Below are positions 5,044-61,744 of a stretch of DNA of 64,000 nucleotides, in pieces. How positions within the stretch are numbered: position 1 is the first letter of the stretch; every line of letters starts with the position of its first letter. The notes beneath the pieces were generated by a model. That model saw nothing but the letters and a program-made list of their open reading frames with translations. It searched no databases and was not told the DNA's origin. Made by a program: the position numbers and the translations under genes. Origin of the DNA: Pseudomonadota bacterium (GTDB lineage Bacteria; Pseudomonadota; Alphaproteobacteria; Acetobacterales; Acetobacteraceae); assembly GCA_018240405.1 (NCBI GenBank), contig JAFEFW010000639.1, positions 1 through 64,000 of the forward strand. The letters are read 5' to 3'.

Positions 5044-6468
5044 ATGACGACAAAGGGCGATGGCGGCGCGCGAGCCGACCCGCCCGTCCGGTCGCGACGG
5101 CGTAGCGGCCAAAGCGCCCTCCGGCGCGACGCCGATCTGTGGGCCAAATTCCTCAAAGCCTGGACCCTCGGATCCCTCCGCGTGCAGCCGCCTCTGCCAC
5201 CTGGGCCGCTCGGACCACGGTCTATTTCGCGCTTCGGCGACCACAACTTCTTCCGCCGCCGCTGGCAGCGCTTTGGACCCATCTTCAAGTATATCTTCAG
5301 TCGCAGACTGACGATCGGCGTCGGCGGTTTCCAGCGCGCCCGCCAGTTGTTCCGCGAGCACGGCGAGGCCCTGTCGCCGGCGACGGTCAACATCTCGGCG
5401 TTCGTGCCGCACGGGCATCTGCGCAGCATGACATCGCCCCACCATGAGCACTACAGAAGCCAGTTCAACCTGGCGCTGCACGGGGACGTCATAACCGCAT
5501 GGGACGCGACGCTGCGGGCTATCGCGCTTGACGAACTGACGCGCCTCGCCGACGCGACAGCGCGTGGAACGCCGCCCAAGGAGCTGATGGTCCCGACGCT
5601 CGACCGCATCACGTTGCGCTGGCTGCTGCTGCTGTCCTATGGCCTGCGTCCCGACGATGGAACGTTCCGGTCGCTGGAAGCGGCACACATGAAAATGGGA
5701 CCCAGCGGCTTTGTCTATCCGCTCGGTCCGCCGCAGCATGAAGCGTTTGCCGAACTCCGGTCATTGGTGACGCAAATTGCGGCATCGATCCGTACCGCCG
5801 GCCGGTCCGACGCCGGTGACAGCGCCCTGCGGCGCCTGCCGACAGCCAGCCTTGAACCGGAGGTTGACCCGACGATCGTCGGCAATCTTATTTTCATGGT
5901 CGAAATGGGCCGTTACGACCTGCGCGGGCTGCTGCGCTGGATCCTGAAATATCTCAGCGACCATCCGGCGGTCGTTACCGAATTGCGCCGGCTGCGGGAC
6001 GCCGGTGGTGGCCTGCAAGACTACGCGCGCGCCTGCGTCCAGGAGACGCTGCGCCTCGACCAGGCTTCCGGCCTGCTGCGCAATGTCGTCAAGGACTTCA
6101 CCTTCGAGGGCTATCGCTTCCCGGCCGGCAGCCTGGTCCGCGTACTGACCTGGGAGTCGCACCGCGACGCCACGTCATTCCAGAATCCAGATGAATATCG
6201 CCCTGACCGTTTCGTACAGCCGGCGCATGACCCCGACAACTATGCGCCATTTGGAATTGGCGAACACCGCTGCATCGCGGCGCAGATGGTGGTGCGGCTG
6301 AGCACGCTGTTCGTCGAAGTCCTGATCAACAATTTCACCTGGCGCGTGGTCGGTGACGGCCCGCGCTTCTACGGCAAGTTCCACTGGGAGCCATCGCTCG
6401 ACTTTGCGATCGAACTACACCCGCGAGCCGCCGCCGATCTCCCGGTTGGCGAGGCGCTGCCGTCATGA
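5044..6468 (+). CDS. cytochrome P450 with non-canonical I-helix
   Basis: 474-residue heme-thiolate protein, soluble (no N-terminal anchor). The heme loop FGIGEHRCIAAQM puts the axial cysteine at residue 410. The K-helix ExxR is ETLR (Glu334-Arg337), followed by a PERF-like YRPDRF. The I-helix, where P450 monooxygenases carry A-G-x-(D/E)-T, reads M-G-R-Y-D-L-R at residues 288-294: the acid is replaced by Tyr291 and the oxygen-activating threonine by Asp292. Ordinary O2-dependent monooxygenation is therefore not assured; a peroxygenase, isomerase, dehydratase or carrier-bound-substrate role is possible. The start has a GAGGAG ribosome site. The next gene, 94 bp on and in the same direction, is a thioesterase similar to the TE of the NRPS at 48.5-54.3 kb, which suggests a tailoring role in peptide biosynthesis. 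Confidence 0.9.
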   Translation: MTTKGDGGARADPPVRSRRRSGQSALRRDADLWAKFLKAWTLGSLRVQPPLPPGPLGPRSISRFGDHNFFRRRWQRFGPIFKYIFSRRLTIGVGGFQRARQLFREHGEALSPATVNISAFVPHGHLRSMTSPHHEHYRSQFNLALHGDVITAWDATLRAIALDELTRLADATARGTPPKELMVPTLDRITLRWLLLLSYGLRPDDGTFRSLEAAHMKMGPSGFVYPLGPPQHEAFAELRSLVTQIAASIRTAGRSDAGDSALRRLPTASLEPEVDPTIVGNLIFMVEMGRYDLRGLLRWILKYLSDHPAVVTELRRLRDAGGGLQDYARACVQETLRLDQASGLLRNVVKDFTFEGYRFPAGSLVRVLTWESHRDATSFQNPDEYRPDRFVQPAHDPDNYAPFGIGEHRCIAAQMVVRLSTLFVEVLINNFTWRVVGDGPRFYGKFHWEPSLDFAIELHPRAAADLPVGEALPS

Positions 6469-6562
6469 CAGGGCGTAACCGTTCCGACATCCGGCGCGGT
6501 GGGCAGTCGGCTGTGCCGGACACGAACGGGCGCCCAGGATCCGGCTCGGCATTGCCGCCGCC

Positions 6563-7453
6563 ATGACAACCATAGCCCTGGCCTCGGCCAGCAACGCCGA
6601 CGCTGAAGCGCTCCCGGCGAGCCCGCTGGTGCTGCTGCGTAGCGGCGGCGCACGGCCGCCGTTGTATTTCCCGCCGAGCATCCTGGGCGAGACTTCGGCC
6701 TATGCCGCGCTCATCGAGGCGCTGAGTCCGGAACAGCCGGTTTACGCCATGGTTGGCCGCTACCGGGACAAACCGCCCGCTGACACGATCGAGGCGATCG
6801 CGCAGCAGTTGTGCGCGCGGTTGATGGCGGCGCAGCCGGACGGTCCTGTCTGCCTGGCCGGCTACTCCTTCGCCGGCCTCCTGGCCTATGAGATGGCCCG
6901 CCAATTGACCGAGCAGGGGCGCGATGTGGCGTTTCTGGGCCTGCTTGACGCCGGACCGGACAGCACAGGCCCGCTTTCCATCCGCGACGCGATAATGGGC
7001 CCTTTGTATTTTCTCCGCAACGTACCGTATTGGCTGCTGGACGAGATCAGGCGTCTGCCGGCCGCTGATCGCCTGGCCGAGTGGCGGCGCTCCGCGCGCA
7101 GGCTGCTGCGGCGGGTGGGCGCCGTGGCGTCCGGGCGCAATGGCCAGATCGCGGCAACCGACGTAGTCATTGCGCCGGGTTGGCCCGATACGCTGCGGGC
7201 ACTTGTCCAGGACAATCTGACCGCTGTCGGGTCCTATCGTTTCCCGCCGTACGACGGGGATCTGGTGGTGTTTCGGGCGAGGACGCGTCCGCTGTATCAC
7301 TCGCTACTGCCGGACCTGGGATGGAGCCGCTGCGTTCGCGGCCGCATACGGGTCGTCAACCTGCCGGCCAACCATCAATCGCTGATGCGTCCGCCGGCGA
7401 TCAATCACCTGGCAGTAGCGTTTCGCAGAGCGCTGGACGAGGCGCAGCGCTGA
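6563..7453 (+). CDS. free-standing thioesterase (alpha/beta hydrolase), paralogue of the NRPS TE domain
   Basis: 296-residue alpha/beta-hydrolase thioesterase. The nucleophile elbow GYSFAG puts the catalytic serine at residue 102; the likely histidine is His271 in LPANHQS. Thioesterases of this type hydrolyse or cyclise acyl/peptidyl chains from carrier-protein phosphopantetheine, or proofread mis-charged carriers. Essentially the whole protein aligns without large gaps to the C-terminal TE domain of the NRPS ending at 48503 (shared stretches RPPLYFPP, GYSFAG, AYEMARQL, SYRFPPY/AYRYPPY, LPDLGW), roughly half the positions identical by eye. It follows the P450 on the same strand and is convergent with the methyltransferase-fold gene 23 bp away. 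No strong ribosome site precedes the ATG, so translation may depend on the P450 message. Confidence 0.88.
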   Translation: MTTIALASASNADAEALPASPLVLLRSGGARPPLYFPPSILGETSAYAALIEALSPEQPVYAMVGRYRDKPPADTIEAIAQQLCARLMAAQPDGPVCLAGYSFAGLLAYEMARQLTEQGRDVAFLGLLDAGPDSTGPLSIRDAIMGPLYFLRNVPYWLLDEIRRLPAADRLAEWRRSARRLLRRVGAVASGRNGQIAATDVVIAPGWPDTLRALVQDNLTAVGSYRFPPYDGDLVVFRARTRPLYHSLLPDLGWSRCVRGRIRVVNLPANHQSLMRPPAINHLAVAFRRALDEAQR

Positions 7454-8172: not shown

Positions 8173-8268
8173 TATCGCCCTCCGCCTTCTGCCAGGAGCA
8201 GCGTCTATCATGGCGGTCCCGCAACTTTCCAGGCGGCGGGCAACGGCGCTCCGCGGCGACGACCAGCC

Positions 8269-38424: not shown

Positions 38425-38566
38425 GGTTTCGTTCGCTCCCTGTTCGGCCCTCTGTGCGTATTTGCCACTGACCATACGGCAGACGCTGTGCTACACGTCG
38501 TGGTCGCCGGCTTCGCTCTTGAGGCGTGGGCGGTTAATAACACAATGTATTACGGGGAGTCACGGC

Positions 38567-41715: not shown

Positions 41716-42668
41716 TGCAGCCGAATCCTTGGGTCAAGCCAGGCGGTTGTCAGGTCGATCAGGATGTTCAGCACGACGAACACGGACGCATAGAGGAACA
41801 CCAGGTTCTGCACGACGAAAATGTCGCGTTCGTTTACCGCAATGAACATGGCGTAGCCCAGGCCGGGCGTGGCAAACGCACGCTCCACGGGTACGGATCC
41901 GGCGAGGACAAAGCCCATCAGGATGCCGGACAGCGTAATGACCGGGAGCATGGCGTTGGGCAGTGCGTGTAGCCCGACCACGAGGCGCCCGCTCAGTCCC
42001 TTGGCGCGCGCGGTGCGGACATAGTCCTCCCGGATCACCTCCAGCAGGCTTGATCGCGCCATGCGAGCGATATAGGCGGCCTGGCCAAGCCCCAACACGA
42101 TCGCCGGCGGCAGCACGATCTGCAGGTTAGACCACGGATCTTCCCAGAACGGGATATTGGTCAGCGGCGGGCGGTAACCGAACCAGAACAGCATCGCCAG
42201 GATGATCAGCATGCCGACCCAGAAGCCCGGCACGGCCAGGAACAGGATGGACAGGAAGCGGGCAATGGTGTCGCCGAAGCTGTTTGGTCGCAGCACGGAG
42301 ATCAATGCGACCGGAATGCCGACGATCCAGGACAGCACGACAGAGAACAGCGCGATCTCGGCGGTCAAAGGCCCACGGCGCACGATCATGTCTGCGACGC
42401 TCTCCGACCGGAAGAACGAAGTGCCGAAGGTGCCGCTGGCGACGTCGCGCATCCAGCGCAGGTACTGCACGATCAGCGGGTCGCTCAGCCCCAGGTCCGC
42501 CATGTATTTCGCCCGGTCGGCGTCGCTGAGTTTCTGCAGTCCCTCGGGGCCGAGGACAGCCAGCAGCGGGTCGCCGGGCAGGACGCGCATGACGACAAAG
42601 ATGACGATGGAGACGCCGATGACGGTCAGCAGACCGAAGACGATGCGTCGGGCAATATAGGCATACAT
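41712..42668 (-). CDS. Dpp/Opp-type ABC transporter permease (DppB-like, importer 1)
   Basis: 318-residue permease starting MYAYIARRIVFGLLTVIGVS, the DppB-type first helix, followed by FVVMRVLPGDPLLA, MADLGLSDPLIVQYLRWM, and the EAA-type loop YVRTARAKGLSGRLVVGLHALPNAMLPVITL. Ends YASVFVVLNILIDLTTAWLDPRI as usual. First gene of the permease pair; the 210 bp upstream must carry its promoter. It would pair with the DppC-like subunit, and with the ATPases on the opposite strand. Confidence 0.94.
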   Translation of the reverse strand: MYAYIARRIVFGLLTVIGVSIVIFVVMRVLPGDPLLAVLGPEGLQKLSDADRAKYMADLGLSDPLIVQYLRWMRDVASGTFGTSFFRSESVADMIVRRGPLTAEIALFSVVLSWIVGIPVALISVLRPNSFGDTIARFLSILFLAVPGFWVGMLIILAMLFWFGYRPPLTNIPFWEDPWSNLQIVLPPAIVLGLGQAAYIARMARSSLLEVIREDYVRTARAKGLSGRLVVGLHALPNAMLPVITLSGILMGFVLAGSVPVERAFATPGLGYAMFIAVNERDIFVVQNLVFLYASVFVVLNILIDLTTAWLDPRIRLQ

Positions 42669-42878
42669 TCGGTATGGACTTCGCCGCTATCGGCTGCCCG
42701 CGCCATGCGCGGTGCCGGACGGTCGTAGTACACGATGAAACACTGGCGCCGGTGTCGCGGCGTCGCCCATAAATTCCTCCCTGCGCTTCTTGGTACGCTG
42801 TCGGACAATGTTAGCCTTAACAGCAGCCCCGGCACAACGGGCGGATTTATCAATCGGCGCCTGGCGACGATCGCAAGA

Positions 42879-43865
42879 CTAATCGTGTAGATGGCACGCC
42901 ACCGCCCGCTCTCCTGGCGTCCCCATCAGCACCGGATCCTCCTGCGCGCAGCGCGGCATCGCCGCCGGGCATCGCCGATGGAACGCGCACCCAACGCGCG
43001 GACCTGTCGCGCTGGGCGGCTCGCCCTGCACGATCTGCCGCGGCCGAGTCGCCTCCAGTTCCGGGTCGGGAATCGGGATCGCCGCCATCAGCGCCTTGGT
43101 GTAGGGGTGCAGCGGGTCGCGGTAGAGGTCATCGCGCCGCGCGATCTCGACGATCCGGCCCAGATACATCACCGCGATGCGGTGGCTGATATGCCGCACC
43201 ACCGCCAGGTCGTGGGCGATGAAGATATAGCTCAGGCCGAGACGGTCCCGCAGGTCGACGAACAGGTTGACGATCTGCGCCTGGATCGACACGTCCAGCG
43301 CCGACACCGGCTCATCGCAGATCACCAGGGAGGGTTCCAGCACCAGTGCCCTGGCAATGCCGATCCGCTGGCGCTGACCGCCCGAGAACTCGTGCGGGTA
43401 GCGGTCCGCCATCGCGGGCGCCAGGCCGGTCATTGCCATGGAGGCTGCAATGCGCTCCTTCAGCGCCGCCCGGCCGCCGGCGATGCCGTGCACCTCCAGC
43501 GGTTCGGCGATGATGTCGCGCACCTTCATCCGTGGGTTCAGGGACCCGTACGGGTCCTGATAGACCATCTGCATCCGGCGCCGGAGCGGGCGCATGTGGT
43601 CCTGGTCAAAGTCGGTGATGTCCACGCCCTCAAACGCAATGCGCCCGGCGGTCGGTGTCACCATCCGAGCAATGGCCAGGCCAGTGGTTGATTTGCCGCA
43701 GCCGCTCTCGCCGACAACGCCCAGCGTTTCGCCGCGCGCCAGGGTGAAAGTGACGCCATCGACCGCGCGCACCGCCCCGGCCTGGCGTCGGAACACGGCA
43801 CCGCGCGTGATCGGGAAATGCACCTTCAGGTCCTCGACCCGCAGGATATCGTCGGCGTCAGGCAT
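42879..43865 (-). CDS. Dpp/Opp-type ABC transporter ATP-binding protein (DppF-like, importer 2)
   Basis: 328-residue ATPase. ILRVEDLKVHFPITRGAVF, Walker [38 protein letters not shown], signature [17 protein letters not shown], Walker [14 protein letters not shown]-loop FIAHDLAVVRHI and the C-terminal GCAFHRRCPAAMPRC. It is the last gene of importer 2; ATG 43865 overlaps the upstream coding end by eight bases (an in-frame ATG 21 bases further upstream is the alternative). Confidence 0.93.
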   Translation of the reverse strand: MPDADDILRVEDLKVHFPITRGAVFRRQAGAVRAVDGVTFTLARGETLGVVGESGCGKSTTGLAIARMVTPTAGRIAFEGVDITDFDQDHMRPLRRRMQMVYQDPYGSLNPRMKVRDIIAEPLEVHGIAGGRAALKERIAASMAMTGLAPAMADRYPHEFSGGQRQRIGIARALVLEPSLVICDEPVSALDVSIQAQIVNLFVDLRDRLGLSYIFIAHDLAVVRHISHRIAVMYLGRIVEIARRDDLYRDPLHPYTKALMAAIPIPDPELEATRPRQIVQGEPPSATGPRVGCAFHRRCPAAMPRCAQEDPVLMGTPGERAVACHLHD

Positions 43866-44826
43866 GGTGGAAGCAGGCGGCTGCATGGTTGTCCGCGATC
43901 TGGGCCAGGACGGGGCGTTCGGTGCGGCAGCGTGGCATCACAACACGGCAGCGCGGCGCGAAGGCACAGCCCTGCGGCAGGCGACCGAGGTCGGGTGGCT
44001 GGCCTTCGATCGGCACCAGCCGCTCCGCCGTGTCGCTGTCCAACCGTGGGACGGATTGCATCAAGCCGCGCGTGTAGGGGTGCTGCGGCGTGCGGTACAG
44101 GCGGCGCGCCGGCGCGATCTCGACGATGCGGCCGGCATACATCACCGCCACGCGGCTGGCGTAGCGCGCAACCACGCCCAGGTCGTGGGTGATCAGCACC
44201 AAAGCCGATCCGGTCTCCTCGCTGCGGGTCTTCAGCAGGTCCAGGATCTGCGCCTGCACCGTCACATCGAGCGCCGTGGTTGGCTCATCGGCAATGGTCA
44301 GCGTCGGCTCGCAGGCCTGCGCCATGGCGATCATCACCCGCTGGCGCATGCCGCCCGAGAACTGATGCGGGTAGGCGGCCAGGCGCTGCGCGGCGTCGGG
44401 GATGCGCACGCGATCCAGCAAGCCACGTGCCCGCGTCAGTGCATCGCGCCAGGTGGCGCCGCGATGCTCGACGATCGGTTCGGCCACCTGCAGGCCAATG
44501 GTCAGCGCCGGGTTCAGCGACGACATCGGCTCCTGAAAGATCATGCCGATGCGGGAGCCGCGGATGGCCCGGATGCCGGCATCGTCCAGCGTCAGCAGGT
44601 CCTGCCCTTCAAACAGCACCTGCCCGGCCTCGATGCGGCCGGGCGGCGTCGGGATCAGGCGCAGGATGGACAGCGCGGTGACACTCTTGCCGGAGCCGGA
44701 TTCGCCGACGATTGCCAGGGTCTCGCCCTGCGCCACGTCGAAGGAAACGTCATCGACCGCCGTCACGGTCCCGCCGGACGACCGGAAGCGGGTCGTCAGG
44801 CCGCGGACCTCAAGAAGAGCGGGCAT
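43858..44826 (-). CDS. Dpp/Opp-type ABC transporter ATP-binding protein (DppD-like, importer 2)
   Basis: 322-residue ATPase: [21 protein letters not shown], Walker [41 protein letters not shown], signature [15 protein letters not shown], Walker [14 protein letters not shown]-loop [14 protein letters not shown]-terminal cysteine cluster [15 protein letters not shown]. The ATG overlaps the binding-protein stop (TGATG), so translation is coupled. Partner of the DppF-like gene. Confidence 0.94.
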
Positions 44827-46511
44827 CAATAGCCCATCTTCTTCTTCATCTCCTGGTCGATCCAGATCTGCGCATAGATCGGCCAAGGCCTAACCGCGCC
44901 GGCGCGCAGTTCGCCGTTGTAGTTCTGTACCCAGGGCCACCACGCGGTGTAGAGGTAGGGGATCGGCAGCCAGATATATGGCGCCTGGGCCAGGATCTCA
45001 CGCGTCATGTCGCGCAGCATGGCCTGGCGCTTGGTTTCATCCGGTTCGGCGTAGACGGCATCCATGCGCTTGTCATAGGCAGGATCGGACCAGCCGGACG
45101 GATTCCATTGCTGGTTGCTGGTGAAGCTCTTGCGGATCGTCGTCGTCGGGTTGGTGTGACCATTATTCATGAAATAGCCGGGCGTCATGGTTCGTTTCAT
45201 CATCGAGCCCAGGAACGCACCGTATTCCATCGGCTGGATCTCGATCTTCACGCCCACCTGCTCCAGATACGCGGCGACCAGTGGCAGCAGGTCCATATGG
45301 TCCGGATTGCAGGCGCAGACCTGCACCTTGAAGCTGAACCCGTTGGGATAGCCGGCCTCGGCCAGCAGCTTCTTCGCCTTCTGCGGATTGTAGGTGTACA
45401 GCTCCTTGACCTCGTCGGGCATCTTGTCCAGCGGTTCGAAATACGGCCCGTATTCCGGGTGTTGCGGATAGGCGAACAGCTCGGCGTTGCCATTGTAGTA
45501 GGCCGAAACGATTTCCTGCTTGTTGACCGCCATGTTCAGGGCACGCCGGACGCGGATATCCTTGAACGGTCCATCGACGTCGACACGCATGGCCAGGAAC
45601 GTGCCAGACTGCCCCAGCCAGCGGTGCCATTTCAACGCCGGCGCGCTCTTCTTCAGGCTGTCGACGTTCTGCCAGCGGATGTTTTCCAGAATATCCAGCT
45701 TGCCGGTACGCAGCGCGGCCACCCAGGTCGCCTCATCCTTGATCGTGTGGTAGACGACCTTGTCTACGAACGGCAGCTTGTATTCGGTGCCTCCGATCGT
45801 CTCCTTACGCCAGTAACTGGCATTCTTCACGTAGGTCGCTGAATTACCCTGCACGTAGTCCGTCAGCGTAAACGGGCCGCTGCCTGTGGCGTTCTTCCAG
45901 TCGCCGATGCCCTTGTCCGACAGCTCCTTCGGGTAGATGCCGGAGTAGTAGCCCCAGCCGAACCGGTAGTCCCATTCGGCAAAGTAGTTCTTGAAGACGA
46001 AAACCACCGTGTGGTCGTCCGGCGCCTCCACCTTCGCGACGTGATCGAAATAGCCGACCTGAGTCTTTGGACTGTCGTGCAGCCGCTGATAGGCGTTCAG
46101 CACGTCGCTCGCCACCAGCTCGCGCGGCTCCATTACCCCCGGCTTGCCGGGGAACATCACGCCGCGGCGTAGTTTGATTTCCACGCGCGGCGGGTTCTGC
46201 TTCCATTCCCAGCTTTCGGCCAGCTCGCCCTTGATTGCGTCCTTCGGCAGATAGGCTTCCAGCACAAAGGAGTAGGGTCCGCCGTTGCGTTCCGCCTTCG
46301 ACAGGTCTGCGGCGAACAACTGCTCATACATGCCGCCGGTGTCGTGGTTGGACTTCCAGGTAAAGTCCGCCGGGTCCCACGACAGTGCCGACAGCGTGAT
46401 ATACACCGAACCAATATCGAGCGTGCCGCCATAGCGCGGCGCCTCGGCAGCCGAAACGGCGGAGGCTGCCAGCATGGCCGTCGCCGCTGCCAGTTTACCA
46501 ATCAGTTTCAT
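44826..46511 (-). CDS. family-5 ABC peptide-type solute-binding protein (importer 2)
   Basis: 561-residue periplasmic receptor. Sec signal peptide MKLIGKLAAATAMLAASAVSA, cleaved near AVSAAEA. The mature protein has GGTLDIGSVYITLSALSWDP, AESWEWKQNPPRVEIKLRRGVMFPG, ATGSGPFTLTDYVQGNSATY, DIRVRRALNMAVNKQEIVSAYY and YLEQVGVKIEIQPMEYGAFL, as in SBP_bac_5. GGGAGGGAAAC precedes ATG 46511. It sits inside the operon between the permeases and ATPases. Because the operon follows an NRPS, its ligand could be the NRPS product or a related peptide; this is inference. Confidence 0.93.
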   Translation of the reverse strand: MKLIGKLAAATAMLAASAVSAAEAPRYGGTLDIGSVYITLSALSWDPADFTWKSNHDTGGMYEQLFAADLSKAERNGGPYSFVLEAYLPKDAIKGELAESWEWKQNPPRVEIKLRRGVMFPGKPGVMEPRELVASDVLNAYQRLHDSPKTQVGYFDHVAKVEAPDDHTVVFVFKNYFAEWDYRFGWGYYSGIYPKELSDKGIGDWKNATGSGPFTLTDYVQGNSATYVKNASYWRKETIGGTEYKLPFVDKVVYHTIKDEATWVAALRTGKLDILENIRWQNVDSLKKSAPALKWHRWLGQSGTFLAMRVDVDGPFKDIRVRRALNMAVNKQEIVSAYYNGNAELFAYPQHPEYGPYFEPLDKMPDEVKELYTYNPQKAKKLLAEAGYPNGFSFKVQVCACNPDHMDLLPLVAAYLEQVGVKIEIQPMEYGAFLGSMMKRTMTPGYFMNNGHTNPTTTIRKSFTSNQQWNPSGWSDPAYDKRMDAVYAEPDETKRQAMLRDMTREILAQAPYIWLPIPYLYTAWWPWVQNYNGELRAGAVRPWPIYAQIWIDQEMKKKMGY

Positions 46512-46545
46512 GTTTCCCTCCCGTTTGTTTCTTGTCCTGCGCCTG

Positions 46546-47427
46546 TCAGCGGGACCCTCGCATCCGTGGGTCCAGCAAATCGCGCAGCGCGTCGCCGAAC
46601 ATCGATATGGCGAACACCACAATCGTCAGGCACAGGCCCGGCGCCAGCGCGAGCCATGGGCCCTGATACATGTAGGCCCGCCCTGATCCGGACAGCATCG
46701 CGCCCCAGGTCGGCGCTGGCGGCGGTACGCCAAAGCCCAGGAAGGACAGGCCCGATTCCGCCAGGATCGCCGTGCCGACGCGGTTGGTGAACAGCACGAT
46801 CACCGGCGCCATCACGTTCGGCAGCAGGTGCCGCCAGACGATCCGCCGCGACTTGGCACCGATCGACTGCGCCGCATGCACATACATCGTCTGCCGCACC
46901 GACAGCACCGCGCCACGGATAATGCGCGATCCGGCGATGCCCAGCGCCAGGCCCAGCACGACGATGATCTGGCCCATACCGGGACCCAGCACGGAGACGA
47001 CGACAATCAGCACGATCAGTTCCGGAAAGCTCATCCAGGCGTCGACGAAGCGCTGCACCAGCATGTCGAACCAGCCGCCGAGCCAGGCGCACAGTACCCC
47101 AATGGTGACCGAAACGGCGGTGGCAAGGGCCGCCGCGCTGAAGCCGATGATCACCGACATGCGCGCGCCGTAGATGCAGCGCGACAGCATGTCCCGTCCC
47201 AGATTGTCGGTGCCGAACGGGAATGCCCAGCTTGGCGGTTTCAGCCGGTTGAGCGGGCTGATCTGGTTGAAGCCATACGGCGCCAGTACGTCGGCAAACA
47301 CGCCGCACAGCAGGAACAGCACGCACACCACGCCGCAGATCGCGCCCAGCGGCTTGTCGCGTACCAGCCTCGTCAGAAACTCCCACGAGGGCGCACGCGC
47401 CGGAGGGGCCAGGGCGATATCGCTCAT
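46546..47427 (-). CDS. Dpp/Opp-type ABC transporter permease (DppC-like, importer 2)
   Basis: 293-residue permease. The first helix region DKPLGAICGVVCVLFLLCGVFADVLAPYG is followed by FPFGTDNLGRDMLSRCIYGARMS, the EAA loop YVHAAQSIGAKSRRIVWRHLLPN, LSFLGFGVPPPAPTWGAML and terminal ISMFGDALRDLLDPRMRG. ATG 47427 overlaps the dppB-like stop (ATGA). The frame is open for another 150 codons upstream, but that is an out-of-frame reading of the preceding permease. Confidence 0.94.
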   Translation of the reverse strand: MSDIALAPPARAPSWEFLTRLVRDKPLGAICGVVCVLFLLCGVFADVLAPYGFNQISPLNRLKPPSWAFPFGTDNLGRDMLSRCIYGARMSVIIGFSAAALATAVSVTIGVLCAWLGGWFDMLVQRFVDAWMSFPELIVLIVVVSVLGPGMGQIIVVLGLALGIAGSRIIRGAVLSVRQTMYVHAAQSIGAKSRRIVWRHLLPNVMAPVIVLFTNRVGTAILAESGLSFLGFGVPPPAPTWGAMLSGSGRAYMYQGPWLALAPGLCLTIVVFAISMFGDALRDLLDPRMRGSR

Positions 47428-48380
47428 TGATGGCGGACCTTCGGGTCGAGCAGGCCGTAACTCAGGTCGACCAGCAGGTTGATGGCAACGACAGCGACGC
47501 CGACGACGAGGAAGACGCCGGTAATAACGGGATAGTCGCGGCTGTTCACCGCCTCCAGCAGCAGCAGGCCCATGCCGGGGATGACAAAGATCTGCTCCAT
47601 GATCACCGCGCCGCCGATCAGCACCGGTGCCTGCAGGCCGATCAGTGTCACCACCGGTATCAGCGCGTTGCGCAGCGCGTGGCGGACGATCACGGTGCGG
47701 CGGGCGAGGCCCTTGGCATAGGCGGTGCGGACATAATCCTGCCGCAGCACTTCCAGCATCATCGTGCGCGTCATGCGCATGGTGATCGCCGACAGGCCGA
47801 AGCCCAGGATCACCGCCGGGATGATCATCTGCGCCAGGTTGCGGCCGGGATGTTCCAGGAACGGCGTGTACTTGATCTCCGGCGACCAGCCCCACCAGAT
47901 CGACGGAAAAACAATCACCAGCGTGCCGAGCCAGAAACCGGGAATCGCCAGCATCAGGATCGAGAAGGAGCGGGTGATGTAGTCCACGGCGGTGTCCTGC
48001 CGCATCGCCGATCCGACGCCGATCGGGATCGCCAGCGTCAGTGCGACCGCCATCGCCAGTAGGCCAAGTTCAAACGTGACCGGCAGCCGCTGGAGTATCT
48101 GCTCTGACACCGGGGTGCGCTGCCACAGCGAGGTGCCGAGGTCGCCGTGGAACAGGATCCCGCCGATCCATTGCAAATATTGCACGTAGACCGGCCGGTC
48201 GAACCCCAGCGCTGCCTCCAGCGACTGGCGGCTGACCTTGGCGGCGCCGCTTTCGTTCTGACTCAGCATCAGGTCGATGACGCTGCCGGGGATCAGCCGC
48301 ACGGTGACAAAGACGATCGCGCTGGCAAACAGCAGCGTGGGAATCAGCGTCAGGATGCGCCGGATGACATAGCGTTGCAT
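47424..48380 (-). CDS. Dpp/Opp-type ABC transporter permease (DppB-like, importer 2)
   Basis: 318-residue permease. MQRYVIRRILTLIPTLLFAS begins the first helix; FVTVRLIPGSVIDLML, LGFDRPVYVQYLQWI, and the EAA loop YVRTAYAKGLARRTVIVRHALRNALIPVVTL follow. It ends with the family's INLLVDLSYGLLDPKVR. First gene of importer 2, beginning 123 bp after the NRPS stop in the same direction. ATG 48380 has AGGGAGGTG upstream; an in-frame ATG at 48425 (MLEKKPAEI) is a weaker alternative and would overlap the proposed promoter. Confidence 0.93.
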   Translation of the reverse strand: MQRYVIRRILTLIPTLLFASAIVFVTVRLIPGSVIDLMLSQNESGAAKVSRQSLEAALGFDRPVYVQYLQWIGGILFHGDLGTSLWQRTPVSEQILQRLPVTFELGLLAMAVALTLAIPIGVGSAMRQDTAVDYITRSFSILMLAIPGFWLGTLVIVFPSIWWGWSPEIKYTPFLEHPGRNLAQMIIPAVILGFGLSAITMRMTRTMMLEVLRQDYVRTAYAKGLARRTVIVRHALRNALIPVVTLIGLQAPVLIGGAVIMEQIFVIPGMGLLLLEAVNSRDYPVITGVFLVVGVAVVAINLLVDLSYGLLDPKVRHQ

Positions 48381-48502: not shown

Positions 48503-51500
48503 TCAGCCCTCTGCCCGGTCCAGTGCGGCGCAAAATTCAGCCGCGAGCTGCCGGACGATCGGCGGCCGGGTCACCGTCTGGTGGTTGCCCGGCAGGTCGA
48601 CGACGGTCACGCCGCCCTCCACACAGCCGCGCCAGCCCAGGTCCGGCAGGTGCGAGTGCAGCAGCGGACGGGTCACGGCCCTGAACAGCACCAGGCGTCC
48701 ATTGTAGGGCGGATACCGGTAGGCTGACAGGATGCGCAGGTTGTTGGCCACCTGCGCTCGCAGGGCCGGGGACCAGTCAGACGTGTCGAACAGGTCCGCG
48801 GCTTCGTGCCGCGGTCCGCGCCGCATCGCTCCCTCCGCAAGGCGCCGGAGCAGCGTTCGCGCCGACCGCGCCAACGCCAGCCAATGCGCCACGGCCGGGC
48901 CTCGCCCGATCTCATCCCGGACCCAGCGAGGCAGGTTGCGCAGCAAATGGAGGCCGTCACGCAACAGCGCGGCCGCCGTTCGTGGTCCGACACTGTCCGG
49001 GCCGGTATCGATGATGCCCAGGAAACGAGTTTCGCGTCCTGTCTCCGCCAGCTGACGCGCCATTTCGTAGGCGACGATGCCAGCGAACGAATAGCCGGCC
49101 AGGCAGATCGGTCCGTCCGGCTGGAGCTGGCACAGGGTGCGGCAGTACTGCGCGGCGAGTGCCTCAATCGAGGCTGGCAGCGGCCCATCTGGTGGCCCCG
49201 GCAACAGGGCTCGGACCGGCCGCCCGGGCTCCAGCGCCCCGAGAAGGTCTGGATAGACAGCGCTCTCGCCCATGACGCCTGGTGGGAAATACAGCGGCGG
49301 TCGCGTCCCTCCGGCGCGGATTTCCAGCACAGTGTCAGCGGTGCCCGGTTCAGCGGCTGCGTCTTGCGCACCGGCGAGCCCGGCGAGCGTGGGATGGCGA
49401 TGGAACGCTGGCAGTCCGGGATGTCGACCGAATACGGCCTCCATCCGCGCCAGCATCCGCATCGCCAGCAGGGATGTGCCGCCAAGGTCGAAGAAATTGT
49501 CCTCGGCGGATGGTTCGGCCACGTCCAGCACCTCCGACCAGATGCGCGCCAAAGCGGTTTCGGTCGGTGAGGCAGGCGGGCTGCTGCCGGACCGGCTCGT
49601 CTGCCGGCCCGCCCCGCCAGGAGGCGGCAGTGCGGGAAGGTCCAGCTTGCCGTTTGGCGATAGCGGCAGCCGCTCGAGCGGAATGATAGCGTGCGGAACC
49701 ATGTAGTCGGGCAATGTCCGCTGCAATGCGCGCCGCAGTGCAGCCGCATCGATCGACGCGCCCTGGTTCGGAACCACATACGCGACCAGACGATCGACCT
49801 CCCCATTCTGCGCCAGGATCACGGCCGACTGGCGCACGCCCGCCAAGGCATCCAGCGCCGCTTCGATTTCGCCCGGCTCGATGCGGTGACCGCGTAGTTT
49901 CACCTGGCGATCGACCCGGCCCAGGAACTGGAGCGTTCCGTCCGGCAGCCAGCGCCCGCGGTCGCCTGTTCTGTACAGCAACGTGCCGGGTGCAAACGGA
50001 TTGTCCGGGAAGCGGTCATGGCGCAGCCCCGTGCCGTCCAGGTAGCCCAATGCAACACCGGCGCCGCCCACGCAGATTTCGCCGATCGCGCCGGGCGGCA
50101 GCAGCGCACCGTGACGATCCAGAACGTAGCAGGTCGAACCAGCGACCGGTCGGCCGATCGGGATGCTGTCGCCGGCGGCGTTCTGCGGCGTTATCTCCAG
50201 CCAGGTGGAGAATGTGGTGTTCTCCGTCGGCCCGTAGACATGCAGCAGCCGCTTGGGTGGCCGGGAAGCGAGCACCGCGCGCACGCGCCGCGGATCGAGC
50301 CGTTCGCCGCCGACCAGCAGGCAGCCCAGCGCCGCGAAACTGTCCGGCGCGGCGTCGGCGACTTCATGGAACAGCGCCGTGGTCAGGAACACGATGGTGA
50401 TGCCGTCGGTTCGGATCGCCGCCGCCAGTGCTGAAGGCGACAGCAACGTCGCCTGATCCAGTCCGACGAGGCAGGCGCCGTTCAGCAGCGCCCCCCATAT
50501 TTCGAACGTTGCCGCGTCAAAGCCGGTGTTGGATGCGAAGCCGATGCGGTCGCTGGCGTCGATGCGGATGTAGTTGGTATCCCGCACCAGCCGGACGATC
50601 GCCCGGTGCGGCACCAGCACGCCCTTGGGCACGCCGGTCGAGCCCGACGTGTACATCGCATAGGCTGAATCGCCGCCTGCCAGGGCGACCATCGCACCAT
50701 CCACGGGCGGGTCGTCGTCATCCAGGTACAGCACATGCGGCACCGCGGTCAGAAGTTCCGCGGGAGGATCGGCACAGGCGACCAGAGCGGCGCACGCGGC
50801 ATCTTGCATCATGAACCGGAGCCGGTCCGGCGGGTGCCCGGGGTCCAGGGGCACATAGGCGGCGCCGGCTCGGACAATCCCCAGCGTGGCGATCACAGTC
50901 GCAACGCACCGGCGGCCGAACAGTCCAACCCGGTCGCCGCGTCGGACGCCCTGTCGCCGCAGCCGGTGTGCCAGACGTGCCGACGCTCTCTCCAGGTCGC
51001 GATACTCGATGCGCTCCGATCCGAAGACGACGGCGGGCGCTGCCGGGGTCAGAGCCGCCTGCGCTGCAAAGCCGTCGGCCACAGAACCGTAGTCACGGGT
51101 CGTGGCGGCGATCCCGCTCCACTCCTCCAGCAGCGTCCGGCGCTCCGCCGCGTCCAGCGCCTCCACCCGGCTGAGCGGCGCGTCCGGTTCGGCGGCAACG
51201 GCGCGCAGCAGCGTCGCGTACTGGGCCGTCAGGCGCTGCATCGATACCGCGTCATACAACTCTGCGCTGTAGGTCAGCGTGCCGCGCAGCGCCGGCCCGT
51301 CGCGCCGCATGTCCAGCTCGAGCTCGAAGCGCACGCGCTCGCTGGCGACCGGCAAGGGCGTGACGTCGAGGCCGTCGAGCGCCAGCGCGTCATCGTCCAG
51401 CAGCACAAGCTGGAAGATCGCCTGTGCTAGTGAATTGCGGGCGGAGCCGCGGCCGGGGCGCAGCAACGCGACGACCTGCTCAAACGGCAGGTCCTGATGG

Positions 51501-54325
51501 TCGTAGGCGCCGACCGACGCCGCCGCCACCCGCCGCACTACGTCGCAAAAGCTTGGGTTTCCGCTGAAATCCGCGGGTATCAGCAGCGTGTTCACGAACA
51601 GGCCGATCAGCATCTCCAGGTCGGCCTCGTTTCGGCCCGCCGTCGCTGTGGCGACGGCGAAGCGCTGCTGCCCGCTGGTACGGGACAGCAGCACCTGGAA
51701 GCCTGCCAGCAGGACCATCTGCAGTGTTGCCTCCGAACGCCGTGCCAGGTGTTCCAATTGCGCGACCAGCGGCGCCTCCAGGTGGAAGCCGATGCGGCCG
51801 GCAGCATGGTCCGGCACCGGCGGCCGGGCGCGATCCCGTGGCAGTTCCAGCGGCTCCAGTCCGCTCAAAGCTCGCCGCCACCAGGCTTGCAGTTCCGCCG
51901 TCCGCGCCGGGGTCAGCGCCTGGCGCTCCCGCCGCGCGTGGGACGCGTAGTCCAGCGGTAGTGGCGGCAGCGAGGCCGGCGCGCCGCATCGGGCCGCTTG
52001 GTAGAGCACCGCCAGTTCCTGGTTGAACAGGCGCAGTGACCATGCGTCGGAGACGATGTGGTGCATCGTCACCAGCAGCACGTGGTCTTCGGCGTCGAGC
52101 CGCAGCAGGCGGACGCGCAATGGCAGATCGTGCGCCAGATCAAACGGCCGATCCGCCTCGGCCCGAGCAAGCCGCAGAGCCTCGGCCTTGCGCTCTGCCG
52201 CCGGCAGGTGGGCCAGGTCCTGCTGGTGAAGCACAATGGGAATCGGCGGTTCAATGCATTGGACGGGGCTGCCGTCCGCCAGACCGAAGCGGGTGCGCAG
52301 CGGCGCGTGGCGCGCAACCATGTTATCCAGTGCGTGGCACAGCGCCGCGCGATCCAGCTTGCCGTGCAGGCGCCACGCCTGCGGCAGCAGGAACAGGCTG
52401 ATGCCGGGGGTCAGCGCCTCCTGAAACCAGACGCCACGCTGCGCGAATGACATGGGCGTGCTGGCAACGTTGATCGCGGGCTGCGGCAGGGACGGTGGCA
52501 GCGGAGCGGCGTCACGCACCAGGCCAGCAATGCCGGCGAGGGTCGGCGCGGCAAAGATCTGACTTGGCCGCAGCCGGACCCTGTGGCGTGCCTGTATCAA
52601 GGCGGCTAACCGGGCCGCCAGCAGCGAATGGCCGCCGACGTCGAAGAAATTGTCGTGGCGCCCGACGCTGTCGAGACCCAGAAGGTCTCGCCAGATGGCC
52701 GCGAGTTCGGCTTCCAGCGCATTCGCGGGCGGGCAGGCGGAACCGCCGGCGCTGTTCCTGCCAGGCGCTGGTAAGGCGGCTCTGTCAAGCTTGCCGTTGG
52801 TGGTCAGCGGCAGGGCTGGCAGTACGACGAAGGCGGCCGGCACCATGTACTCCGGCAAACGCGTCCGCAGGTGCCGACGCAACTCCCGGCCATCAATGCC
52901 GCCCCCGGGCCGTGGCACAACATAAGCGATGAGGCGCGCATCCCCGTCATCGCGCCGCGCCACCACCGCCGCCTGCGCGACGCCGTCGATGGCAGCCAGT
53001 GTGGCTTCGATCTCCCCCGGCTCGATCCGGAAGCCGCGAATCTTCACCTGCGCATCGGCGCGGCCAAGGAAGGCAATGCCACCCTCCGGCAACGCCCGGC
53101 CGAGATCGCCGCTGCGATACAGCCGCGCCCCGGCATCAGGGGAGAAAGGATTGGCGATGAACCGTTCCGCTGTCAGCTCAGGGCGGTTCAGATAGCAGCG
53201 GGCGAGGCCAGAGCCGCCGACAAAGATCTCGCCGGTTTCGCCAGGAGGCACCGGCGCCAGGGCCGCATCCAGCAGATAGAGCTGGACTCCGGGGATGGGA
53301 CCGCCGATCGGGCTGCCGCCGGCATCGACATCGGCCGCCGTAATGTGCCGATGCGTAACGTGCACGGTCGTTTCGGTAATGCCGTACATGTTCACCAGCT
53401 TTGGTCGCGTATCGCCATGGCTCGCGACCCAGCGCCGCAGCATCCGCGGATCGAGCGCCTCGCCACCAAAGATAACATATCGCAACGATGACAGCCTGGT
53501 TTCATTGCCGCGGTTCGTTGCGGGGCCGATCAGTGCGCCGAACGCGGACGGCGTCTGATTCAGGACCGTGACCTGATGCCGCAACAGCAGGGTATAGAAC
53601 TCGTCCGGCGAGCGGGCCGTATCGCGCGGCACCACGACAAGGCAGCCGCCGTGGAACAGCGCGCCCCAGATCTCCCAGACCGAAAAATCAAAGGCAATTG
53701 AATGGAACAAGGTCCAGACATCGTCCGACTGGAAGCCGAACAGCATCTGTGTCGATTGCATCAGGCTGACGACCGAACGGTGCTCGATGGCCACGCCCTT
53801 GGGCTGGCCGGTCGATCCCGATGTGTAGATCACATAGGCCAGTTGATCCGGCCTGGTATCGGTTTGCGGATTGCTGGCGGGCTGCGCTGCAAAGGTCGGA
53901 TCCGCTGGATCGTAGGCCAGCACGGCGACGTCGCCGGGCAAGGAATCGATCAGGTTCGAATTCGTAACTACCAGGCAAGCCGCCGCATCGCGCAACATGA
54001 ACGCCAGCCGTTCCCGCGGCGCATCCATGTCTAGCGGAAGGTAGGCGCCACCCGCCTTCAGGATGCCCAACACGCCGACCACGAGGTCGACCGACCGGTC
54101 GAGCAGCAGGCCGACCAGCCGCTCGGCGTGGACACCGCGCGCCCGCAATACGTGTGCCAGCCCATTGGCTCGATCATTGAGCTCACGGTACGAAAGCGAT
54201 TCGCGGCCGTCGGTTACCGCGAGCCGGTCGGGCGCCGCCGCGACCTGCGCTTCGAAGATCGTGTGCAGGCAGGCTTCAGCGGCACACATGGAGGCACGGG
54301 CTGAGGCAGCGCCGCAGGTCGTCAT
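48503..54325 (-). CDS. dimodular non-ribosomal peptide synthetase, A-T-C-A-T-TE
   Basis: 1940-residue NRPS. Module 1, without a condensation domain (starter): A1 residues about 20-510 with YTSGSTG from Tyr167, YGITET, YRSGDLGR and NGKLD; T1 with GGHSL, phosphopantetheine Ser567. Module 2: C about 625-1055 with HHIVSDAWS (His755, His756, Asp760; Ala replaces the usual Gly), A2 about 1075-1560 with YTSGSTG from Tyr1225, T2 LGGTSL with Ser1618, and TE about 1660-1938 with GYSFAG Ser1746 and likely His1915. Specificity pockets read by alignment to GrsA/EntF: A1 D-F-W-N-I-G-M-V-H-K, the canonical threonine code; A2 D-A-F-F-L-G-V-T-F-K, Ile/Val-like. Predicted product: Thr-(Ile/Val), linear or cyclised. 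No MbtH or PPTase gene is in the window. The ATG at 54325 abuts GGGAG with almost no spacer; ATG 54289 is an alternative. Divergent from the PAP2 gene. Confidence 0.95.
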   Translation of the reverse strand: MTTCGAASARASMCAAEACLHTIFEAQVAAAPDRLAVTDGRESLSYRELNDRANGLAHVLRARGVHAERLVGLLLDRSVDLVVGVLGILKAGGAYLPLDMDAPRERLAFMLRDAAACLVVTNSNLIDSLPGDVAVLAYDPADPTFAAQPASNPQTDTRPDQLAYVIYTSGSTGQPKGVAIEHRSVVSLMQSTQMLFGFQSDDVWTLFHSIAFDFSVWEIWGALFHGGCLVVVPRDTARSPDEFYTLLLRHQVTVLNQTPSAFGALIGPATNRGNETRLSSLRYVIFGGEALDPRMLRRWVASHGDTRPKLVNMYGITETTVHVTHRHITAADVDAGGSPIGGPIPGVQLYLLDAALAPVPPGETGEIFVGGSGLARCYLNRPELTAERFIANPFSPDAGARLYRSGDLGRALPEGGIAFLGRADAQVKIRGFRIEPGEIEATLAAIDGVAQAAVVARRDDGDARLIAYVVPRPGGGIDGRELRRHLRTRLPEYMVPAAFVVLPALPLTTNGKLDRAALPAPGRNSAGGSACPPANALEAELAAIWRDLLGLDSVGRHDNFFDVGGHSLLAARLAALIQARHRVRLRPSQIFAAPTLAGIAGLVRDAAPLPPSLPQPAINVASTPMSFAQRGVWFQEALTPGISLFLLPQAWRLHGKLDRAALCHALDNMVARHAPLRTRFGLADGSPVQCIEPPIPIVLHQQDLAHLPAAERKAEALRLARAEADRPFDLAHDLPLRVRLLRLDAEDHVLLVTMHHIVSDAWSLRLFNQELAVLYQAARCGAPASLPPLPLDYASHARRERQALTPARTAELQAWWRRALSGLEPLELPRDRARPPVPDHAAGRIGFHLEAPLVAQLEHLARRSEATLQMVLLAGFQVLLSRTSGQQRFAVATATAGRNEADLEMLIGLFVNTLLIPADFSGNPSFCDVVRRVAAASVGAYDHQDLPFEQVVALLRPGRGSARNSLAQAIFQLVLLDDDALALDGLDVTPLPVASERVRFELELDMRRDGPALRGTLTYSAELYDAVSMQRLTAQYATLLRAVAAEPDAPLSRVEALDAAERRTLLEEWSGIAATTRDYGSVADGFAAQAALTPAAPAVVFGSERIEYRDLERASARLAHRLRRQGVRRGDRVGLFGRRCVATVIATLGIVRAGAAYVPLDPGHPPDRLRFMMQDAACAALVACADPPAELLTAVPHVLYLDDDDPPVDGAMVALAGGDSAYAMYTSGSTGVPKGVLVPHRAIVRLVRDTNYIRIDASDRIGFASNTGFDAATFEIWGALLNGACLVGLDQATLLSPSALAAAIRTDGITIVFLTTALFHEVADAAPDSFAALGCLLVGGERLDPRRVRAVLASRPPKRLLHVYGPTENTTFSTWLEITPQNAAGDSIPIGRPVAGSTCYVLDRHGALLPPGAIGEICVGGAGVALGYLDGTGLRHDRFPDNPFAPGTLLYRTGDRGRWLPDGTLQFLGRVDRQVKLRGHRIEPGEIEAALDALAGVRQSAVILAQNGEVDRLVAYVVPNQGASIDAAALRRALQRTLPDYMVPHAIIPLERLPLSPNGKLDLPALPPPGGAGRQTSRSGSSPPASPTETALARIWSEVLDVAEPSAEDNFFDLGGTSLLAMRMLARMEAVFGRHPGLPAFHRHPTLAGLAGAQDAAAEPGTADTVLEIRAGGTRPPLYFPPGVMGESAVYPDLLGALEPGRPVRALLPGPPDGPLPASIEALAAQYCRTLCQLQPDGPICLAGYSFAGIVAYEMARQLAETGRETRFLGIIDTGPDSVGPRTAAALLRDGLHLLRNLPRWVRDEIGRGPAVAHWLALARSARTLLRRLAEGAMRRGPRHEAADLFDTSDWSPALRAQVANNLRILSAYRYPPYNGRLVLFRAVTRPLLHSHLPDLGWRGCVEGGVTVVDLPGNHQTVTRPPIVRQLAAEFCAALDRAEG

Positions 54326-54560
54326 CTCCCGTCACATGCCGCAGAGAGCACAAGACGCGATGTCGATGCCAAAGATCGGGCCGTCTCGCTACCACCGGCG
54401 TACTCGCACCACATCGACAATGGTAACATGATCGTAGCGTGGCCATTCGGCGTTGCAAGACGCGACAAGGCGCCGTCTGCTGTGGGGCGAGATCTGTCAG
54501 TGGCACGCCAGACGGGTCGGCCGTATCACACCGATCCATCGCAGCCAGAACGGAGACAAG

Positions 54561-55301
54561 GTGCCGCAGGAGTCCAATTCCACGTCCCGGGTTGATCGCG
54601 CGCTGCCGCGAAGGTGGCCTGAATTACCCGTTGTGCTGGCCTTCATCGCCCTCGCCGGGGCTCTGTGGGCCTTTGGATGGATTGCCAACGAGGTGGTCCA
54701 AGGCGGCGGTCACGGCGTTGATCTGCGCATCATGCTGCTGCTGCGGAACCCGGACGACCGGATGGACCCGATCGGACCGCGCTGGTTTGAGGAAATGGCG
54801 CGGGACCTGACGGCGCTGGGCAGCGTCGGCGTGCTGGTGCTGATCACCGCGCTGGTGGCTGGGTTCCTGCTGCTGGCCCGCCGGCGCGCCGCCGCTTTAC
54901 TGGTGACTTCGTGCCTCGGCGGCGGCTGGCTGCTGACCATGGCGCTGAAGCGCGGCTTCGACCGGCCGCGGCCCGACCTGCTGCCGCATGGCACCACGGT
55001 CTTCACCGCGAGCTTTCCAAGCGGCCATGCCGCTATGTCAGCCATTGTCTACCTGACGCTCGGCGCCATGCTGGCTCGGCTGCAGCCGACCCGGGCGCTA
55101 CGCGTCTATATCATGTCGGCGGCGGTCAGCCTGACGCTTCTGATCGGCACCAGCCGCGTCTATCTCGCCGTGCATTGGCCGAGCGATGTTGTGGCCGGAT
55201 GGACGATCGGCGCCGCCTGGGCGCTGGCGTGCTGGCTGGTGATGCGCACACTGCAACGGCGCGGGCAGGTGGAGACCGTGGCGTCGGAGGACAAACGCTG
55301 A
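54561..55301 (+). CDS. PAP2-family membrane phosphatase
   Basis: 246-residue inner-membrane phosphatase. About five to six hydrophobic segments. The three phosphatase motifs are KRGFDRPRP (KxxxxxxRP), FPSGHAAMSA (PSGH) and SRVYLAVHWPSDVVAGW (SRxxxxxHxxxD). Family members dephosphorylate undecaprenyl pyrophosphate, phosphatidic acid or lipid A. The start is a GTG at 54561 with GGAG seven bases upstream; earlier codons lack ribosome sites. Divergent from the NRPS (235 bp between starts). Confidence 0.9.
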   Translation: MPQESNSTSRVDRALPRRWPELPVVLAFIALAGALWAFGWIANEVVQGGGHGVDLRIMLLLRNPDDRMDPIGPRWFEEMARDLTALGSVGVLVLITALVAGFLLLARRRAAALLVTSCLGGGWLLTMALKRGFDRPRPDLLPHGTTVFTASFPSGHAAMSAIVYLTLGAMLARLQPTRALRVYIMSAAVSLTLLIGTSRVYLAVHWPSDVVAGWTIGAAWALACWLVMRTLQRRGQVETVASEDKR

Positions 55302-60437: not shown

Positions 60438-61676
60438 TCACTTTCGACGCTGGATCGCGCCTGCCTGCTGCAAGATCCTGAATGTGCCGCTGATGACCTG
60501 TTGGCCAAACTTGTCTTCACCTTCGGGCGGCTGGCTATTGGTGAAGGCTGTGATCACCAGGTCGTATTGTGGCCAGAAGACGAAGAACGCCCTGAACCCG
60601 AGCGTTTCGCCCTCATAGAACCAGAACGCTTCGCCGGTAGCCGGGTCGTACAGCCGGCCGAGGTCCAGGCCGAAGCCTGCGGGATCGTCCGCGCTGACGT
60701 CGCCGATCGGCTTGCCGGTCTTGCGCGAGACCAGCGTCTGCATTTCATCAAGCTGTTTCTGCGGCAGCACCTTGCCGCTGAACAGCGCGCGTATCCACCG
60801 TTCGAGGTCACCCGGCGAGGCAATAATCGCACCAGCGGGGCCGGCCCAGGACAGGTTCTCCCGGCTCACATCCTTGCCGATCAGCGGGCCGAGCGTCGGC
60901 TTGCTGCAAGGCTTCGGCTGGTATTCCAGGCAGGCCTGGTTCTGATACAGGCCGCGCGGTACGCGTGCCAGCACCGCCTCGGGATAGGCGCCGCGGGCGT
61001 AGTACGTGTCCTGCAGGTTCAGCGGGCGCAGCAGTTTCGCCTGCAGCACGTCCTGGAAGGGTTGCTGCGTCGCGGCCTCGATGATCATTGCCGCGAGGAT
61101 GTTGTTGGTGTTGGAATAGAACCAGCCGGTGGGAAGCGGGAATTTCTGGCCGTTGCCGGGGTCGACCGCCGCGACGAGGTCGGACAGCGCGAATTGGTGG
61201 TTCAGCTCGGTTGCGACGATCGTGCCGATCGAGACCGTTTCAGAATAGGTTGGAATTGGTGCGGTCATGTTCAGCAGGGAGCGGATCGTCACGTTACTCC
61301 ACGCGGTGTATTGCGGCAGCCACTGTCCGAGTGTCTGGTCGATGTTGAGGATGCCGTCCGCCTCGAGACGCAGGATCAGCGCGGCGGTAAAATGTTTCGT
61401 GTTGCTGCCGATCTGAAACAGCGTCCGCGGCCCGATTGGGCGGGACGGCTGCCGTCCATCGGTCCCGCTGAACAGCGCCATGACTGGCTTGCCGCTGCCG
61501 CGGTCGACGCGCAGCGCGATACCCGAGATGCCCTCGATCGCGGTGCGCTCTTTCACGTAGGTGTCGATCAGGCGCTGCAATTGTGCGGTCACGGCCTTGT
61601 CGTCCGCCCGCGCCGGTGCTGGTAGCACAGCGATGGCGCACCAGGCTGCAAGCACCATCCAAACCAGATATCGCAC
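60438..61676 (-). CDS. exported serine hydrolase, class C beta-lactamase/DD-peptidase-like
   Basis: 412-residue periplasmic penicillin-binding-fold hydrolase. Signal peptide VRYLVWMVLAAWCAIAVL then PAPARA, cleaved near ARA-D. Catalytic SxxK is SNTK (Ser91-Lys94) in LFQIGSNTKHFTA, the YxN motif is YSNTN, and EGETLGFRAFF may hold the third-motif equivalent (H/K-x-G is unclear). Members act as beta-lactamases, D-aminopeptidases or esterases. GTG 61676 chosen with AAGGA upstream; the frame extends to an ATG at 61721, but then the leader is too long. Confidence 0.88.
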   Translation of the reverse strand: MRYLVWMVLAAWCAIAVLPAPARADDKAVTAQLQRLIDTYVKERTAIEGISGIALRVDRGSGKPVMALFSGTDGRQPSRPIGPRTLFQIGSNTKHFTAALILRLEADGILNIDQTLGQWLPQYTAWSNVTIRSLLNMTAPIPTYSETVSIGTIVATELNHQFALSDLVAAVDPGNGQKFPLPTGWFYSNTNNILAAMIIEAATQQPFQDVLQAKLLRPLNLQDTYYARGAYPEAVLARVPRGLYQNQACLEYQPKPCSKPTLGPLIGKDVSRENLSWAGPAGAIIASPGDLERWIRALFSGKVLPQKQLDEMQTLVSRKTGKPIGDVSADDPAGFGLDLGRLYDPATGEAFWFYEGETLGFRAFFVFWPQYDLVITAFTNSQPPEGEDKFGQQVISGTFRILQQAGAIQRRK

Positions 61677-61744
61677 CGAGGATTCCTTCAGGCTGCCGCT
61701 CCGCTTGTATCGGGTACCCAAGGGAGCGGCAAACGCCTTCCGGT

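Follow-up and report, generated by a model that had tools for sequence, protein, structure and literature searches.

A dimodular peptide synthetase of an Acetobacteraceae bacterium, predicted to make a Thr-(Ile/Val) dipeptide, and a free-standing sister of its thioesterase

The window, a stretch of 64,000 nucleotides from the genome of an Acetobacteraceae bacterium, carries a 5.8-kb minus-strand gene encoding a dimodular non-ribosomal peptide synthetase (NRPS), which probably makes L-Thr-L-Ile (or L-Thr-L-Val) and releases it through its own thioesterase (TE) domain. Judged from its sequence, the gene is that of an intact, well-formed dimodular NRPS with a type I TE, an enzyme of an ordinary kind. 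The domain order, the catalytic residues, both adenylation codes and a fragment of the phosphopantetheinyl transferase (PPTase) family in the same genome could be read directly.

Domain organization of the synthetase

The synthetase is encoded by a single open frame, and its domains were located as follows:

48503..54325, minus strand: dimodular NRPS, A-T-C-A-T-TE, 1940 aa (single open frame and Pfam)
52790..54256, minus strand: A1 with AMP-binding_C (Pfam, residues 24-379 and 438-512), code DFWNIGMVHK, a published Thr code
52520..52708, minus strand: T1 carrier domain (Pfam, residues 540-602), serine in the motif GGHSLL
51128..52459, minus strand: C domain (Pfam), motif HHIVSDA
49616..51082 (approximate limits), minus strand: A2 (second AMP-binding stretch), code DAFFLGVTFK, a published Ile/Val code
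49376..49570 (approximate limits), minus strand: T2 carrier domain (second PP-binding stretch), serine in the motif GGTSLL
48509..49390, minus strand: C-terminal type I TE (Pfam), residues Ser1746-Asp1773-His1915 in the triad columns; range matched by the free-standing TE

The plus strand at the same coordinates was interrupted by stops. Pfam detected two AMP-binding, two AMP-binding_C and two PP-binding matches in the frame, one Condensation match (residues 623-1066, 8.6e-89) and one C-terminal Thioesterase match (3.1e-18), confirming the order A-T-C-A-T-TE, with a terminal TE and no C domain before module 1, that an earlier note on this DNA had described without naming the strand. Pfam found no C domain in the frame ahead of A1, whose match begins at residue 24, and next to the NRPS on its upstream side lies a divergent gene of the PAP2 family (54453-55301); module 1 was therefore read as an initiation module. 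The NRPS thus consists of an initiation module without C, followed by one elongation C domain with an HHxxxD motif.

The core motifs were present in both A domains, the carrier serines lie in GGHSLL (residues 564-569, T1) and GGTSLL (residues 1615-1620, T2), and Ser1746, Asp1773 and His1915 occupy the triad columns of a 46-row alignment of TEs. The A motifs, the T serines, the C motif and the TE triad gave no indication that any of the domains is defective.

The C motif, HHIVSDA (residues 755-761), had been pointed out in the earlier note as HHxxxDA instead of HHxxxDG. The motif is as described, but its weight as a signal did not hold: HHxxxDA or HRxxxDA occurred in 14 of 291 other C-domain stretches and a DG ending in 246, in a set biased towards similar loci with a few genes counted twice. 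The DA ending is a minor variant and was dropped as a special signal. The 14 best other C domains were found between T and A (10) or at the protein start before A (4), as elongation domains are, and these positions support the reading as an NRPS.

Predicted substrates and product

Both codes were re-derived, with motifs of A1 as anchors for the ten positions and A2 aligned to them, which gave DFWNIGMVHK and DAFFLGVTFK. This independent extraction returned the strings reported before. The first is identical to a published Thr code, as had been stated; the second, described as close to Ile/Val codes, is in fact identical to a published one. Because both codes match published codes exactly, the Thr-(Ile/Val) prediction is stronger than was claimed.

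PMC2533009 gives DFWNIGMVHK as the code of the Thr-incorporating domain OciA-A2 and DAFFLGVTFK as that of OciB-A5 and OciC-A7, both of which incorporate Ile or Val. The Planktothrix cyanopeptolin synthetase OciA/OciB/OciC to which these domains belong differs from the window NRPS in being a seven-module line with its Thr and Ile/Val modules non-adjacent. For suomilide-type inhibitors, PMC13122637 connects DAFFLGVTFK with L-Ile, or with D-allo-Ile where an epimerase is present. In PMC12283262 DFWNIGMVHK stands among the Thr/Dhb codes and is also tied to N-methyl and N,O-dimethyl-Thr. The latter is a point against plain Thr, although Pfam found no methyltransferase domain in the NRPS frame.

Among 408 A-domain stretches of the compared loci, 56 bear the Thr string and five the Ile string; copies of the window NRPS were excluded, some other genes are present twice, and the loci were mostly picked by similarity to the query, so that these counts do not represent frequencies in nature. 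A2 shares only 43-47% identity with the ten comparison domains that match it best, and its code may therefore mislead. The specificity of either A domain is a prediction from ten residues.

On this prediction A1 would adenylate L-Thr and load it onto T1, A2 would load L-Ile (or L-Val) onto T2, and the C domain would join Thr to the T2-bound residue. The C-terminal TE would then release the dipeptide, most likely as linear L-Thr-L-Ile and possibly as a diketopiperazine. Substrates, stereochemistry (Pfam found no epimerase domain in the frame) and release mode are all predictions of this scheme. A point against a Thr-Ile product is that no conserved neighbourhood backs a function.

Relatives of the synthetase and genomic background

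A pattern-based scan of public genomes, which catches close relatives only and possibly omits the window's own genome, revealed no NRPS orthologue among the best 80 of at least 587 relatives (at least 589 matching stretches); the best segment identity among these 80 was 44%, and the first-listed match, from Rhizonema, showed 43%. The 80 loci compared were chosen by likeness to the query, which biases the counts of codes and motifs, and some genes occur double in them (for example L003/L110). No orthologue was present in 33 other members of the genus, where the best match (41%) fell in the interior of a frame of 7909 residues (G007). A marker search with the free-standing TE described below as query, in place of the NRPS, gave no orthologue in 298 other genomes of the family or 384 other genomes of the class. 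At the threshold of 1e-35, which the NRPS TE passed at 1.1e-86, the own genome was the sole responder; it is included in both samples (299 and 385 genomes), which partly overlap.

The A-T-C-A-T-TE order is not unique to the window NRPS. By a four-profile scan it was also assigned to proteins of a Verrucomicrobia MAG (L010), Streptomyces lateritius (L023) and a Cyanothece MAG (L047), the first two uncut and the third cut at the contig start. All three have a Thr-like first code; they differ from the window NRPS in their second codes and in the branches of their TEs, and L010 also differs in having Cys at the TE nucleophile. The same replacement of Ser by Cys was seen in L006, and in both L006 and L010 the first A domain has a Thr code. 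One protein among the 408 A-domain stretches, from Rhizonema sp. NSF051 (L004), has both window codes in adjacent modules and in the same order, Thr before Ile. It differs in its architecture, C-A-T-C-A-T-C, seemingly an internal part of a longer line, and no TE was found in the protein.

The aureusimine synthetase of Staphylococcus aureus, AusA, is dimodular, A-T-C-A-T, and ends in a reductase domain. The window NRPS matched the NCBIfam AusA model partially, at 987 bits against a cut-off of 2500. A dipeptide aldehyde/pyrazinone synthetase of the AusA type was rejected, as a thioesterase stands in place of the terminal reductase. For the earlier note's remark that no characterised alphaproteobacterial two-residue NRPS of this kind came to light, a few word searches of open-access papers provide weak evidence; in two of the papers found, the architecture string was part of a longer architecture. 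According to PMC8776678, a survey of Acetobacteraceae clusters, 6 of 28 NRPS genes of the acidophilic group are bimodular.

The assembly consists of 681 contigs, with an estimated completeness of 97.57% and contamination of 0.74%, and a search of it for 16S found none. A PF01648 (PPTase-family) match of 64 bits was found in a frame of 188 residues that is truncated where contig C675 ends; the long stretch preceding the match in this frame suggests an Sfp-type enzyme. No MbtH-like protein was matched in the assembly, in a search whose control was positive in E. coli and B. subtilis, two of 14 control genomes. The NRPS gene has a GC content of 0.683 against 0.657 for the window, and its codon distance of 0.056 was the lowest of 31 genes compared (the gene's length favours a low value, and the reference excluded the NRPS, the free TE and the P450). 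Since GC content and codon use match those of the neighbours, a recent foreign origin by composition was rejected.

These data bear on the possibility that, despite its intact sequence, the locus has no activity or is silent in this genome, for instance through lack of MbtH or of expression. The missing MbtH match and the lack of an orthologue in the relatives searched are in its favour; if the A domains depend on MbtH, its absence would leave them without function, a point that also counts against the Thr-(Ile/Val) reading. On the other hand, all the catalytic motifs checked are intact, codon use resembles that of neighbouring genes, and many A domains are active without MbtH. We consider a silent locus quite unlikely.

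Further C-domain genes of the genome lie on contigs C133 and C630, where loci L109 and L110 hold NRPS-type genes, the one for a protein of 4318 residues and the other for an A-T-C protein of 1081 residues with atypical codes. Elsewhere in the window, the product of 60438-61721 (minus strand) has a weak similarity to the class C beta-lactamase family (best score 55 bits against a cut-off of 415); with so weak a score, a serine hydrolase is more probable than the product of a resistance gene.

Free-standing thioesterase, P450 and adjoining importer

Two further genes of the window were set beside the NRPS as proposed partners:

6563..7453, plus strand: free-standing TE, sister of the NRPS TE, proposed partner (identity, tree, PF00975)
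5044..6468, plus strand: cytochrome P450 (Pfam p450, 1.4e-26), proposed partner, directly upstream of the free TE with a gap of 94 nt

The free TE and the NRPS TE are 48-50% identical and are mutual closest relatives in the set compared, the next long alignments reaching at most 36% and short stretches up to 43%. The ten best-ranked records of a plasmid collection were 29-32% identical to the free TE. In a maximum-likelihood tree the two are sisters (100/100). They share a clade supported at 96/96 with two TE proteins from the genus and fall outside a 17-row set (98/90) that includes the DhbF-like TEs; the tree comprises 46 rows, of which 43 are different and some have very long branches, with neither EntF nor type II TEs among them. 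The TE proteins nearest to the branch of the pair are L105 (9243-10358, plus strand, G028) and L106 (7639-8808, plus strand, G024), the latter T-TE by profile scan; both lie near putative NtrX/NtrY-type regulator genes. PF00975 gave 10 matches over the own genome, and only the NRPS TE and the free TE exceeded 28 bits (75 and 70 bits). These two are separated by 41 kb and share a single contig of 71,952 bases in a genome of 7.37 Mb, which simple arithmetic would expect in about 1% of random placements.

We take the free TE to be a type I TE that became free-standing through duplication, and an identity of 50% indicates that this duplication was not recent. Type II TEs are discrete proteins of 25-29 kDa according to PMC4147253. 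The free TE, with 296 aa and an estimated 32 kDa, is larger, is the sister of a type I TE in a tree without type II TEs, and has the same Asp-His spacing as the NRPS TE (142); a canonical type II thioesterase was thus rejected. The presence of the sister TE and of the P450 on the same contig makes it doubtful that the NRPS is self-contained, as the earlier note had held. A TylF/Methyltransf_24-like methyltransferase gene of lower GC content (0.597) adjoins the free TE on the opposite strand (7477-8211, minus strand).

The tree also bears on the release step. The NRPS TE might act iteratively, as in EntF/DhbF, building a cyclic oligoester from two or three Thr-Ile units linked via the hydroxyl of Thr: it is a type I TE with an intact triad, Thr supplies the hydroxyl, and C-A-T-C-A-T-TE proteins taken as DhbF-like share the later domain order. 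Its position in a clade of its own outside the DhbF-like set (EntF being absent from the tree) and the lack of an N-terminal C domain for an aryl acid make this very unlikely, and on the same points an EntF/DhbF-type iterative siderophore synthetase was rejected. The obafluorin TE has a Cys nucleophile. Beta-lactone release of the obafluorin kind was rejected because the nucleophile of the NRPS TE is Ser; Cys was found in 5 of the 46 rows of the TE set. Release of a single Thr-Ile (or Thr-Val) dipeptide is the reading we retain.

The P450 has kept ETLR and the heme motif (FGIGEHRC, at residue 403), and its I-helix reads MGRYD at residue 288. In an alignment with CYP51 MGRYDL faces AGHHTS, which puts Asp at the position of the usual threonine. 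No match was found at 1e-15 or below in the 33 other genus members. Its best-ranked plasmid relative, a Mesorhizobium P450 (L122:13842-15143; 31.8% identity over 82%), has RYD in common (FARYD). A TE partner for the Mesorhizobium P450 was sought in two records, and the next gene was a glycosyltransferase instead. The RYD shared by the two P450s suggests that they belong to a subfamily whose oxygen-activation site is non-canonical, and the MGRYD I-helix may indicate chemistry other than standard hydroxylation.

In the nikkomycin and balhimycin pathways hydroxylation is carried out by the P450 partners NikQ and OxyD. A discrete TE, NikP2 or Bhp (written Bph in PMC4147253), frees the beta-hydroxy amino acid from its carrier there, according to that paper, and the window free TE was likened to these enzymes. 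The setting differs: no adenylation domain was found near the window P450 and free TE among the frames given to Pfam, and the free TE of the window is close to a type I TE. By analogy, it is a tentative possibility that the P450 and the free TE (5044-7453) act on carrier-bound intermediates or on the product of the NRPS. Against such a partnership, 41 kb with unrelated genes lie between, and the analogy with NikP2/Bhp is loose. In total, 38 of the 225 window frames of at least 100 aa, chosen by hand, were given to Pfam or NCBIfam, a coverage at which a small tailoring gene could be missed.

A split pathway with duplicated release, which seems unlikely, would go further. The NRPS would keep its TE in cis while the free duplicate is paired with the non-canonical P450; the P450 would oxidise a carrier-bound residue, which the free TE would divert, and two products would result, Thr-Ile and an oxidised form.

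On the 3' side of the NRPS and on the same strand lies a Dpp/Opp-type importer in the order permease-permease-binding protein-ATPase-ATPase. Its region (40807-48380, minus strand) comprises these five genes and then a second permease pair (40807-42668); two further ATPases are encoded at 38423-40605 (plus strand). It is highly improbable that the NRPS and the importer form one unit by which a dipeptide serving as signal or metal ligand would be produced and taken up again. In favour of such a unit are the shared strand, the gene order, a distance of 122 nt from the stop codon of the NRPS to the likely start of DppB, and the lack of a terminator-like site in this gap. Against it, the gap contains one promoter-like site (both by consensus matches only), and DNA similarity of genus members to the window starts at about the DppB start. 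Strong matches to the binding protein (68-70% identity) came from 2 of the 33 other genus members, and both carry the five genes in the same order with no NRPS match in the stretches examined. In Cupriavidus metallidurans CH34 the binding protein has a counterpart of 68% identity, beside which a DppB-like frame and two ATPase frames were recognized by eye (a second permease was not identified), and a domain scan found no NRPS in the surrounding 25.6 kb. A conserved NRPS-importer unit was rejected on these occurrences. Since two genus members carry it without the NRPS, the importer is, on comparison of sequences, a unit of its own and no dedicated partner of the NRPS; that it adjoins a dipeptide synthetase is suggestive, not evidence.

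A gene of 5.8 kb with a firm two-residue prediction is small enough for outright testing. The case would be minor if the product were linear Thr-Ile alone. The duplicate of the TE beside a P450 offers a natural case in which to ask whether a TE acting in trans competes with the cis TE for the same carrier.
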